From Flavobacteriia bacterium (lineage in GTDB: Bacteria; Bacteroidota; Bacteroidia; Flavobacteriales; Flavobacteriaceae), in the NCBI GenBank assembly GCA_004293165.1, contig RDYL01000003.1, positions 124,001 through 188,000 on the forward strand: DNA of 64,000 nt, in the 5' to 3' direction. This document shows positions 34,990 through 38,719 of this stretch, piece after piece. The translations under genes and the position numbers were made by a program. Position 1 is the stretch's first letter, and each line of letters opens with the position of its first letter. Below the pieces are notes generated by a model. The model was not told where the DNA came from. It saw nothing but the letters and a program-made list of their open reading frames with translations, and ran no database searches.

Positions 34990-37047
34990 TTATTTGGTTT
35001 CAATGATGATTTTTTTGATTCTTTTCTTCTCTTTTGGAGATGATTCGTCTTCTATGATTTTAATATCTTTTATTTTTTCAAGTTCGTAGTTTTTGAAGAA
35101 ATCAATGTTGTCTTCAAGAATTTTACCTTGAAACTCTAATTTTAACTGATTTAAATAATGCGTTGGGTAACCAGGAAATTTAATTCTGTCACCTTCAAAA
35201 ACTACGACAACATCACCATTTTTAAGTTCGATTGATTTTGGTTTTGGTTTTTCAGAATTGTTCTTTGAAATTAAATTCTCTCTTATAATAGGATTATTTT
35301 CTATATCATACGCTTTGGTATTAATAAAAATTACTCCATTTTTGCCTTTTTCGCCATATTTTTTCATTGCGTGAGAAGCAATAGTATTACCAGATGAACT
35401 GATTGTTTTGGCATCTATTTTATCTAAATCTTCATAGTTAATTTCTTTTCCATTGAAGAGAATCAGAGCCTTTTTAGCATCAACTAATTTGTTATGCTTG
35501 ATTTTATCTATGTGGCTGAAAGTTCCATCTTCTGAATATTCACCCTCTACTACTGCATACACGGCATCCGAATTCGGCTTTTCACTTTCTTTTTTCTTAG
35601 TTATTTCGTTAAAAGAAATTGTAGTTTTTGGTTCATCTGATATATTAGATTTTCCTTTGAACACCATTACTTTTTTTCCACTTTTTTCATCTTCATTCAT
35701 TTCTATTGCGCCGTCTAATTCAACGATTTTATCTTTCATTTCCTCCTTAGTATATTCTTTTCCATTGATGATGTAAATCATTTCATCAGTAGCTGATTTT
35801 TTGATTTCAACTGTATTTAAGGATTTTGCATCATTCCAATTTACGCCTACAGTATTTTTAATTTCTTCAAAACCACAAGCATTATCATCATCCTTATCAG
35901 AATTAATAAAAATTTTAATAGCATCAATAGGTTCAGTTGATTTTCTTTCCAAAATTCGATTGTAGGTTTTTCCAGAGTCAAAAGAAAGTTTTATTCCAGT
36001 TATTTCCCCTTCTTTATTTCGCTTAACTTTTGAAATTTTAAGTTTATATTTTTCATCTGAAAAAGTCTTTTCTAATTCTCGCAACTCTTTATCGGTCGTG
36101 TTTTTGGTTAGAATTGAAGAATAAGTTACTTCTTCAACAGCATAAGTTGCCACTTTTGAGTTTTCTTTTACCTGCGCAATGGTTTCAATTTGAAACAATA
36201 GCATAAAGCCAACTAATAGCGGAAGAATTGTAGCATATTTCCAAGCATTTCTTTTGTGGGATTGATTTGTGTGTAACATAATGATTCGTTTTTTGATTAA
36301 TGATTGATAAAATTGATTAGTAATACTTAAGTCGTGTTGATGAGTCACAACTTTTAATAAAGTTTTTTGATATTCGTATTTGTTTTCGATTTGTTGAAAG
36401 GTTTCACTATCGGCAATAAACTCAAGATTTTGAAGCATTGCTTTTCGATACAACCAAATGATTGGGTTTACCCAAAACACAGCACAAAATAGTTTTCCTA
36501 GCAACACATCAATTGAATGTTTTTGCTTTACATGAATACTTTCGTGTGTTAAAATATGTTGTAATTCTGCTTCCGAAAATAAATGAGGATTAATAACAAT
36601 GTAATGAAAGAATGAAAATGGATTTTCGGTTTTATTCGAGTGAATTAAGATGAAATCTGCTTCTTTCTGTTGGTTGTGCTTTCTGATTCTATTGTAAAAT
36701 GATGCTATTTCGATACCAATTTTTACTAAAATTAAAACACAAATTACAACATATGCTGTAGTCAAAATTAAAGACCAATCTATTGGAGTTTCTTGAATGG
36801 GAACTTCGATATAATCACTGTTTACAGTAGTTGTTTCTTGATAAAATTCTGGAACAGATGTTGGTTCAATCCAAATGGTTTTGGTAAATGTTATCAAGGG
36901 TAAACATAAGGATACTATCAATCCTAAAATCAGGTACAAACGATTTGAGACAAAAAACGTTTCTTTTCTCAAAAATAAGACATACATCAAATAAAATAAA
37001 ATGATAAGTCCGTTTGCCTTTATAAAATATAGCATTAGATTTTCCAT
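34990..37047 (-). CDS. BlaR1-like M56 membrane peptidase with long exported C-terminal part
   Basis: A 685-residue protein. Membrane helices lie at ~5-25, 35-55, 92-114 and ~268-286. The gluzincin site is H168-E169-S-I-H172 (THESIHVKQKHSID), then FCAVFWVNPIIWLYRKAMLQNLEFIADSE, the BlaR1/MecR1 signature. The 400-residue C-terminal part is exported and rich in Lys/Glu repeats; it holds no penicillin-binding SxxK domain that I can see, so the signal is probably not a beta-lactam. It starts 1 bp after the BlaI-like gene stops and likely cleaves or inactivates that repressor. Confidence 0.9.
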   Translation of the reverse strand: MENLMLYFIKANGLIILFYLMYVLFLRKETFFVSNRLYLILGLIVSLCLPLITFTKTIWIEPTSVPEFYQETTTVNSDYIEVPIQETPIDWSLILTTAYVVICVLILVKIGIEIASFYNRIRKHNQQKEADFILIHSNKTENPFSFFHYIVINPHLFSEAELQHILTHESIHVKQKHSIDVLLGKLFCAVFWVNPIIWLYRKAMLQNLEFIADSETFQQIENKYEYQKTLLKVVTHQHDLSITNQFYQSLIKKRIIMLHTNQSHKRNAWKYATILPLLVGFMLLFQIETIAQVKENSKVATYAVEEVTYSSILTKNTTDKELRELEKTFSDEKYKLKISKVKRNKEGEITGIKLSFDSGKTYNRILERKSTEPIDAIKIFINSDKDDDNACGFEEIKNTVGVNWNDAKSLNTVEIKKSATDEMIYIINGKEYTKEEMKDKIVELDGAIEMNEDEKSGKKVMVFKGKSNISDEPKTTISFNEITKKKESEKPNSDAVYAVVEGEYSEDGTFSHIDKIKHNKLVDAKKALILFNGKEINYEDLDKIDAKTISSSGNTIASHAMKKYGEKGKNGVIFINTKAYDIENNPIIRENLISKNNSEKPKPKSIELKNGDVVVVFEGDRIKFPGYPTHYLNQLKLEFQGKILEDNIDFFKNYELEKIKDIKIIEDESSPKEKKRIKKIIIETK

Positions 37048-37048
37048 A

Positions 37049-37408
37049 CTATTTCTTTTTTTCGATTAACGCTAAAATCTCACGAAGTTCATCTGCCGAA
37101 ATTTTATCTTCTTCTGCAAAATAGGAAACCAAATTTTTATACGAACTATTGAAGTAGTTATCAATAGCGGTATTCATAAAAGTTTTTCTGTAATCTTCAA
37201 TGGCAACAATAGGAAAGTACTGATGCGTTTTTCCATAGGCATTATAACCAACATAACCTTTTTCCTCAAGATTACGAACAATGGTTGAAAGTGTATTGTA
37301 ATGAGGTTTATCGTCGGTGATTTCTTCTAAGATATCTTTTACAAAAGCTTTTTTTAGCTTCCATAAAATGTGCATAATTTCTTCTTCTTTGTTGGTTAGT
37401 TTTTGCAT
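37049..37408 (-). CDS. BlaI/MecI-family transcriptional repressor
   Basis: A 119-residue winged-helix repressor. The LTNKEEEIMHILWKLKKAFVKDILEEI start and HYNTLSTIVRNLEEKGYVGY recognition-helix region are typical of BlaI/MecI/CopY. It is the first gene of a two-gene operon with the BlaR1-like peptidase. Immediately upstream are three 16-bp palindromes at 20-bp intervals, its likely autoregulatory operators, abutting the promoter. Confidence 0.95.
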   Translation of the reverse strand: MQKLTNKEEEIMHILWKLKKAFVKDILEEITDDKPHYNTLSTIVRNLEEKGYVGYNAYGKTHQYFPIVAIEDYRKTFMNTAIDNYFNSSYKNLVSYFAEEDKISADELREILALIEKKK

Positions 37409-37428
37409 GACTTATCGTTTTGATAAAT

Positions 37429-37458
37429 CAAAGTTAAACTATATTTTTAGTTATACAA
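37429..37458 (-). promoter_or_regulatory. Promoter of the blaI-blaR1-like operon
   Basis: Minus-strand TAACTTTG (37429-37436) with TTG at 37456-37458, spacing 19 bases. It lies 21 bases before the ATG at 37408. The -7 box touches the first operator palindrome and the TTG falls at the start of the second. Confidence 0.65.
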
Positions 37459-37492
37459 CTATTTTTATAGTTATTTAACTAAATTTTTAGTT
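37437..37492. promoter_or_regulatory. Three-palindrome operator array for the BlaI-like repressor
   Basis: Three 16-bp palindromes of form AACTA-N6-TAGTT at 37437-37452, 37457-37472 and 37477-37492, each start 20 bases apart. All three share the AACTA/TAGTT half-sites exactly and have 4-base spacers. The array covers the promoter of the adjacent blaI-like gene. BlaI-family proteins bind palindromes as dimers, so autoregulation is likely; the 20-bp period places the sites on nearly the same DNA face. Confidence 0.75.
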
Positions 37493-38719
37493 TTACAGGT
37501 TTCTAGGTGGTTCATATTTAACCAATTTCATGGTCCAAATGAAAAGTAAAACACCAATAACTCCCAGTGTTCCCATAAAAAACCAGTTGGTTTGATAATT
37601 GAAAATTGAAATCATTTCCATCCCAGTTTTAGCGCTTAAGATGTGAGCCAAACTATAACTCATGGTAAAAATTGCCATGTAACGACCTTCATGTCCTTTT
37701 GGAGCGCGACTCATAGCAAATGAATTTGAGAAAGGAAAAGCAAACATTTCTGCAAATGTCATAAATATCATCATAACAATTAAAATACCTGCCCATTGGT
37801 TAATTAATAACAAGTAAAAGCAAGTTGCCATCGCTAAACAACCATAAGTGATTACTTTTAATTTGTTAATTTTATGACGTTCAATATAACTCACAATTGG
37901 CATTTCTAAGAAGAAAACCAATATACCATTAAGAGTTAGTAGTAATCCTGTTTGAAATTCACTCAAATTAAATTGCTCTTTATGGTAGAGTGGAATGGTA
38001 GTAAACAATTGAAAAAATAAGATACCTGTTATCAAAGTTCCTCCAAGGAAAATCCAAAAAGGTTTATCTTTAAAAACGGAGTGTGTTAAAATTTCTCCCG
38101 GATGTTCTGAATCGGTAAATTTTGATTTTTTCTTTTCTTTCACCTTAATCCAGAATATTAAAATAGCTAAAATACATGTAGCTCCATCCACCCAAAATAA
38201 CCCTTTATAGCCAACACTCATGATTAACAATCCTCCAAGTGCGGGACCAGCGGCAAATCCTAAATTTATAGCCAATCTTACTAGGGTTAACGCACGCGTT
38301 CTGTTTTCGGGTTTTGCGTAAGCGCCTAAGGATACAAACATGGCAGGTCGAAACATATCGGCAATAACCATAATAAAAAACATAGCGACAAGTAATCCTT
38401 CAAAACTAGTAATAAATTGTAGTCCAAAAAAGGCAATACCACTAGTTAATAAACTAAATATCATTATTTTGTAGAATCCAATTTTATCGGATAATTTACC
38501 GCCTAACCAAGAACCTAGAATAGAGCCACAGCCAAAACTTACCATAATCCAACCTACTTGACTATATGAAAAATGTAAATCTTCTTTCAAGTATTTAGAC
38601 AAGAAAGGCAATACCATAGTTCCAGCACGATTGATAAAAGTGATAAGTGTAAGTATCCAAATTTCGCGAGAAAATCCTCTGAAATTATCGACATATTTAT
38701 TAAAAGCTTTTTGTAGCAT
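37493..38719 (-). CDS. Major facilitator superfamily transporter
   Basis: A 408-residue inner-membrane protein with 12 hydrophobic segments. The WLGGKLSDKIGFYKIM loop is the MFS motif A (between helices 2 and 3). Resembles drug or metabolite efflux proteins; substrate not predictable. Its stop (37493) directly abuts the third operator palindrome. It is separate from the blaI operon and could be regulated by its own promoter near 38750. Confidence 0.88.
   Translation of the reverse strand: MLQKAFNKYVDNFRGFSREIWILTLITFINRAGTMVLPFLSKYLKEDLHFSYSQVGWIMVSFGCGSILGSWLGGKLSDKIGFYKIMIFSLLTSGIAFFGLQFITSFEGLLVAMFFIMVIADMFRPAMFVSLGAYAKPENRTRALTLVRLAINLGFAAGPALGGLLIMSVGYKGLFWVDGATCILAILIFWIKVKEKKKSKFTDSEHPGEILTHSVFKDKPFWIFLGGTLITGILFFQLFTTIPLYHKEQFNLSEFQTGLLLTLNGILVFFLEMPIVSYIERHKINKLKVITYGCLAMATCFYLLLINQWAGILIVMMIFMTFAEMFAFPFSNSFAMSRAPKGHEGRYMAIFTMSYSLAHILSAKTGMEMISIFNYQTNWFFMGTLGVIGVLLFIWTMKLVKYEPPRNL

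Follow-up and report, generated by a model that had tools for sequence, protein, structure and literature searches.

The three palindromes in front of the blaI-type gene very probably form an autoregulatory operator array of the blaI-M56 operon. In the window, by which we mean the whole 64,000-nucleotide stretch analysed, AACTA-N6-TAGTT occurs as three exact 16-bp copies separated by 4-bp spacers: site 1 (proximal) at 37437-37452, site 2 at 37457-37472 and site 3 (distal) at 37477-37492. Downstream on the minus strand lie the gene for the blaI-type repressor (37049-37408, start at 37408, 119 aa, PF03965) and, second in the operon, that for an M56 (BlaR1-type) membrane metalloprotease (34990-37047, 685 aa). 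An MFS open reading frame on the same strand ends at 37493, 84 bp ahead of the blaI start; the array is therefore intergenic and touches the MFS stop. The -7 box TAACTTTG (TAnnTTTG, the sigma-A consensus of flavobacteria), at minus-strand positions 37436-37429, touches site 1, while the -33 promoter element, a TTG at minus-strand positions 37458-37456, falls in the spacer between sites 1 and 2 and at the start of site 2. Site 1 is thus flanked by both elements. The preliminary description had reported this same geometry of 20-bp intervals, -7 box, -33 TTG and abutting MFS stop, and the coordinates bear it out in full. In F. psychrophilum, TAnnTTTG was mapped to -12 to -5 (available part of PMC9723704); from this position the blaI transcription start is predicted near 37424, which would place sites 1, 2 and 3 at about -13 to -28, -33 to -48 and -53 to -68.

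The array is not due to chance. Lone sites with up to two mismatches are unremarkable, the window holding 85 of them against 77.4 +/- 7.8 in shuffles, and there are four exact sites, of which the array accounts for three, where a first-order Markov model predicts 0.16. The fourth exact copy sits inside the blaI coding region (37144-37159), and it is exact at those codons in 15 of 80 relatives. Under the same kind of model, a 2.57 Mb genome is expected to contain 1.6e-5 two-site and 4e-11 three-site arrays. A regulon of single sites in the window's own genome was considered and rejected: there are 14 exact places genome-wide, compared with 6.4 in the Markov model and 23 for a reversed control pattern. 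No second array was found in this genome even with three mismatches, a setting at which the control pattern gives one match. Since the control outnumbers the sites and a second array is lacking, we claim no regulon beyond blaI-M56 for this genome.

To examine conservation in front of orthologous genes, the window was compared with 80 loci, the best of 568 by protein similarity, which was the sole criterion of choice. Sites with at most two mismatches each precede blaI as a triplet in 77 of the 81, as a pair in 2 and not at all in 2; one of the latter (L092) is at a contig end, and the other (L123) belongs to a blaI-M56-blaI-M56 operon as its second blaI, the array there preceding the first copy. 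Spacing equals 20 bp in 156 of 156 intervals, with 18-22 allowed, and 79 of 79 promoters have TAnnTTTG behind the proximal site, its offset from the end of that site being +1 (72), 0 (6) or -1 (1). All three sites are exact in 33 promoters, two in 41 and one in 5; the weak one is usually distal, and site 2 is the best conserved. The preliminary description had proposed a search before orthologous blaI genes, and at least two sites are indeed kept at 79 of the 81 loci. Its idea of a blaI-type operator array gains support from this conservation, and the fixed 20-bp phase fits dimers bound side by side on nearly one DNA face.

Another possibility is that the palindromes act within the MFS transcript, as an RNA element or a terminator in which one long hairpin ends MFS transcription. 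The predicted fold of the strand reaches -17.8 kcal/mol (z = -6.0; none of 200 shuffles does as well) and the MFS stop codon directly adjoins the array, but any palindrome array must fold in this way. In a comparison of 57 distinct arrays, pairing at the spacer and at most N6 positions is about as frequent as in shuffled columns, and the two innermost pairs are rarer than there (0.16 vs 0.36 and 0.05 vs 0.40). As pairing is no better than in shuffled columns, there is no covariation; besides, the array is kept where the upstream gene differs or is divergent, and so is its phase to the -7 box. We regard a role in RNA as highly improbable.

The alternating half-sites can also be read the other way, as TAGTT-N4-AACTA dyads across the spacers with the outer half-sites left over. 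Such a reading would accommodate the distal half of site 3, which is degenerate in many relatives, and the spacer-centred half-sites ATAGT (43) and TTAGT (30), second to AACTA among 264 promoters. Several promoters argue for the N6 frame instead: locus L075 consists of two whole N6 dyads without an outer half, and an N6 dyad stands alone in 3 of 10 AACTA promoters at class level. The 5-N6-5 frame is moreover common to the TACTA, TACGA and TTCTA classes described below, and the 16-bp operator of CopY is built in this register too. We give the N4 dyad very little credence and retain the 16-bp AACTA-N6-TAGTT palindrome as the unit.

The BlaI protein matches PF03965 with 103.1 bits (cut-off 22.6) and can be aligned to MecI over residues 4-118. 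Against the named NCBIfam models (MecI, BlaI of BCL, CopY/TcrY) it reaches 37-47 bits, far under their cut-offs of 122-250. By these scores it is a member of the PF03965 family and none of the named proteins. Its 119 residues include no cysteine, which rules out a CopY-type C-terminal CXC metal motif. Phe97 is invariant in 81 of 81 aligned orthologues, preceded by Phe (65), Tyr (11), His (4) or Cys (1), and not by Asn; S. aureus BlaI is cleaved at Asn101-Phe102 (available part of PMC9834060).

The M56 protein matches PF05569 (44.7 bits, cut-off 31), and the HExxH motif is present in 72 of 72 M56 proteins. For a model predicted from 39 sequences (pLDDT 65), the best fold matches are to S. aureus BlaR1 (E 1.4e-6). 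No penicillin-binding (class D-like) sensor was detected in it: Pfam finds no sensor domain and the fold matches listed beyond BlaR1 are weak, at a model confidence so low that a diverged sensor could be missed. Because no penicillin sensor was found, a beta-lactam as the signal is not supported, nor is it excluded. The C-terminal region gives weak TonB-receptor-like fold matches (levan utilisome chain, Cir). It includes a stretch, NGKE...YGEKGKNGVI, that we take to resemble TonB-receptor plug domains; the plug-like motif searched for is missing from 54 of 72 relatives.

Most likely, then, the array is where BlaI binds and switches off its own operon. One BlaI dimer would occupy each 16-bp dyad, side by side at 20 bp (about 1.9 helical turns), and neighbouring dimers may contact each other and bind cooperatively. 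Bound BlaI would exclude RNA polymerase, as it would sit on the -33 element at site 2 and, at site 1, on the whole interval separating this element from the -7 box. Upon a signal, the M56 protease of the same operon would cleave BlaI beside the conserved Phe97; the array would empty and the operon be transcribed, along with an envelope or secreted output gene in some genera.

Array searches covered Bacteroidia genomes. An exact two-site array is present in 116 of 299 Flavobacteriaceae genomes and 32 of 247 genomes of the class, the reversed control giving 0 in both. A stricter pattern, with TAnnTTTG exactly one base after the array, is matched by 35 of 395 genomes in the order (34 belong to the family) but not by the genome of the window, in which that one base is missing before the box. 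In 119 class genomes, PF03965 matches occur in 45, with more than 75 bits in 30. The 16 array genomes examined for PF03965 all belong to these 30, each with its array immediately ahead of a PF03965 gene, as a manual comparison of positions showed, and none of the 74 PF03965-negative genomes has an array, which for 54 of the 74 is inferred (Fisher p 2e-8). Where checked, the array is thus restricted to genomes with BlaI. Conversely, the exact two-site array is absent from 29 of the 45 positive genomes, including 14 of the 30 strong ones. A set of 70 class-level or paralogue promoter rows, with at least one gene present twice, contains 26 with a significant AACTA-type array, 25 of these at exactly 20 bp; none was detected in the other 44. 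TAnnTTTG comes right after the array in 0 of 10 promoters of a small class set vs 16 of 27 in an array-selected one.

What the arrays control in other genomes was read from 109 array rows, in which some places were fetched twice. A BlaI start lies within 250 bp of the array in 96 of them (25 of 30 and 71 of 79). Of the other 13 arrays, seven head operons in which one or two genes come first, followed by blaI and M56. The leading genes encode a PF00144 hydrolase (L328), such a hydrolase with a protein that we label HEHFHQ in this analysis (L326), an HEHFHQ protein (L332, L333) or small secreted or lipoproteins (L334-L336). Five arrays appear free-standing, as judged over ~0.7 kb downstream for L244 and over ~2.2 kb to the contig end for L241; their candidate target genes encode a PF00144 protein (L155), HEHFHQ proteins (L243, L244), a CarboxypepD_reg protein (L249) and a protein with a weak outer-membrane-barrel match (L241). 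TAnnTTTG is at its usual place in three of the five and as a TAnnTTTA variant in the two HEHFHQ ones, and each of the five genomes has a BlaI 63-68% identical to that of the window. The remaining one of the 13, an exact array at L128 (G302), lacks a -7 box and was discounted, being probably a chance occurrence or a terminator. The HEHFHQ proteins gave no Pfam match in the two that were scanned. They are found in 5 of 299 family genomes and lie under an array in 5 of 5, a sixth match (E 8e-4) being discounted; the search started from a protein of an array locus, so what it adds is the failure to find any copy lacking an array. Membership of PF00144 does not by itself show beta-lactamase activity. 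Of the scattered regulon members that the preliminary description suggested looking for, a few candidates exist as array-carrying genes in other genera; none was found in the window's genome.

Half-sites were compared over 264 distinct BlaI with upstream DNA, many of them fetched for their array and hence a biased sample. AACTA is the commonest exact 5-N6-5 half-site, in 192 promoters and 0 in shuffles; ATAGT and TTAGT, the next commonest, are read as AACTA arrays seen across their spacers. TACGA (10 promoters), TTCTA (7) and TACTA (6) are further half-sites of this form, each with 0 in shuffles. A preference for A-tracts inside N6 was tried and rejected: A4/T4 runs reach 0.68 over 413 sites vs at most 0.54 in shuffles, but the 102 distinct N6 fall within the shuffle range.

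For 155 distinct BlaI from protein- or family-selected loci, including L337-L350 of six genomes picked for arrays, we set the half-site against recognition-helix residues 38, 41, 42 and 45. The code N38-S41-T42-R45 (NSTR) accompanies AACTA alone in 89 promoters. TLKQ is found in 10 of 10 TACGA promoters, TATK or TSTK in 6 of 7 TTCTA promoters (TATK in 5, the seventh being NSTR), and NATK in 4 TACTA promoters and 2 with mixed TACTA/AACTA. Among classified promoters the association gives a Fisher p of 7e-19, which overstates independence because the sequences share ancestry. No class could be assigned to 43 of the 155, 16 of these NSTR. Of 106 NSTR proteins, 16 lack a classified dyad and 1 has TTCTA. 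Tandem operons account for 10 of the 16, all second copies, and N7 dyads for 4; of the other two, 1 has one mismatch and 1 none. Nine TASK and TASR proteins are also unclassified, several with TACGA palindromes of other spacing. By alignment to the window BlaI, MecI has K, R, T and T at the code positions. The site upstream of the TTCTA paralogues is TACA/TGTA-like (TTCTA-CA-N2-TG-TAGAA).

Loose patterns bring out additional palindromes at paralogues. TACGA-type ones were seen at L195, L198, L205, L214, L216, L258, L259, L266, L267, L270, L275-L277, L280-L282, L285 and L286, and CTACA-N2-TGTAG sites resembling TACA/TGTA at L215, L263-L265, L269, L273 and L295.

Could a regulator other than the adjacent BlaI bind the array? 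Binding by BlaI is what we infer, and the sites here lack the CA/TG found inside the published BlaI/CopY operator. Against this, all 16 comparable array genomes of the class sample have a BlaI, as do the five with free-standing arrays, and the half-site varies with the recognition-helix residues of the neighbouring BlaI. Another regulator is, in our judgement, very unlikely, and BlaI remains the preferred ligand. Going further, we tentatively propose, with a little short of even confidence, that Bacteroidia hold several parallel BlaI-M56 circuits separated by an operator code. Residues 38, 41, 42 and 45 would set the half-site (NSTR for AACTA, NATK for TACTA, TATK for TTCTA, TLKQ for TACGA) within one 16-bp frame, with the 20-bp phase holding at least in AACTA and TACTA; the AACTA circuit would serve envelope sensing through a non-penicillin sensor and command secreted hydrolases in some genera.

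Compared with known systems, the array resembles the CopR/CopY operator (consensus RNYKACANNTGTMRNY, with two operators in some promoters; available part of PMC7253601) in being a 16-bp dyad in 5-N6-5 register for the same repressor family. The outer ten positions agree with that consensus, AACTA fitting RNYKA and TAGTT fitting TMRNY. In contrast, A/T-rich DNA here replaces the inner CA-N2-TG, three sites recur at a fixed 20 bp, and the window BlaI is without the CXC copper motif. CA-N2-TG is absent from the N6 of all three window sites, so none has the form TACA-N2-TGTA. The preliminary description had set the half-site against the staphylococcal TACA/TGTA form; we judge this contrast by the TACA/TGTA and CopY statements in the available part of PMC7253601. 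It is a partial one, standing for the lacking inner CA/TG, while length and outer bases are those of the CopY operator. The suggestion of a Bacteroidota-specific operator needs narrowing: AACTA does not extend to the whole phylum but marks the class found at NSTR BlaI, other Bacteroidia paralogues having TACTA, TACGA or TTCTA sites upstream.

As in the BlaI/MecI systems of staphylococci and B. licheniformis, the repressor is encoded with an M56-type protease and binds its own promoter, here putatively; B. licheniformis BlaI likewise has three operators (available parts of PMC7253601, PMC3305447 and PMC9834060). Staphylococcal and window BlaI have the cleavage-site Phe in common (PMC9834060, available part). 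Those systems differ in forming a divergon with beta-lactamase or mecA, in their penicillin-binding BlaR1 sensor and in their half-site, and the available parts of the three sources make no mention of a 20-bp phased array for their operators. In Clostridium thermocellum, sites of BlaI_0696 and BlaI_1845 have DAP-seq and gel-shift support. They resemble the present ones in CTAT-containing half-sites (GTCTAT and GACTAT there) and in ordered dyad pairs at a few autoregulated operons, but the GTCTAT repeats are reported to be five nucleotides apart, the dyads are two and not three, and the phylum is another (available part of PMC8457756).

Since the CopY consensus and the C. thermocellum dyad pairs precede it, the array idea and its register are known in kind. 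To the extent that the literature searched shows, three features are new: the half-site, the triple array with its strict 20-bp spacing, and the constant position of this array in a TAnnTTTG promoter. No Bacteroidota BlaI operator was found in the open-licence literature searched: the available parts of PMC11213822 (Bizionia) and PMC12584681 (Dyadobacter) mention BlaI/MecI/CopY proteins with no operator seen there, and the main text of PMC9723704 has no match for BlaI or operator. BlaI relatives, common in the genus Flavobacterium (116 of 150 genomes), are named after staphylococcal beta-lactam resistance. With so sharp and conserved an operator, real BlaI regulons can be read from genomes; it suggests that the commonest BlaI class acts mainly on its own expression, with secreted hydrolases or lipoproteins as further targets in a few genera. 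What the M56 proteases sense becomes a testable question, and the link between helix residues and half-site offers a simple specificity prediction for a family with clinically important members.

The surroundings of the array vary among relatives. Tandem blaI-M56-blaI-M56 operons occur at L111-L114, L117, L121, L123, L124, L203 and L208, in which the second blaI lies behind an M56 gene and lacks an array. The distal array end reads, in many relatives, CAAACTTAA or CAAACGTTAA. A divergent promoter at this end was considered, a canonical reversed TAnnTTTG being found in 14 of 77 loci, but the idea was dropped because 0 of the 18 loci with a divergent upstream gene have it. Across the array at L102, L119, L125, L135, L138, L236, L247 and L250 lies a divergent gene starting with LLVVGGEFLVRAS or similar, presumably a Na+/Ca2+ antiporter. 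Finally, a conserved divergent ORF of 180-197 aa (YNKTNFHKHTFCIF...YKSKSGS) is found upstream of the array in 12 loci (L067, L073, L077, L083, L087-L089, L094, L095, L097, L101 and L126), where site 3 is degenerate.
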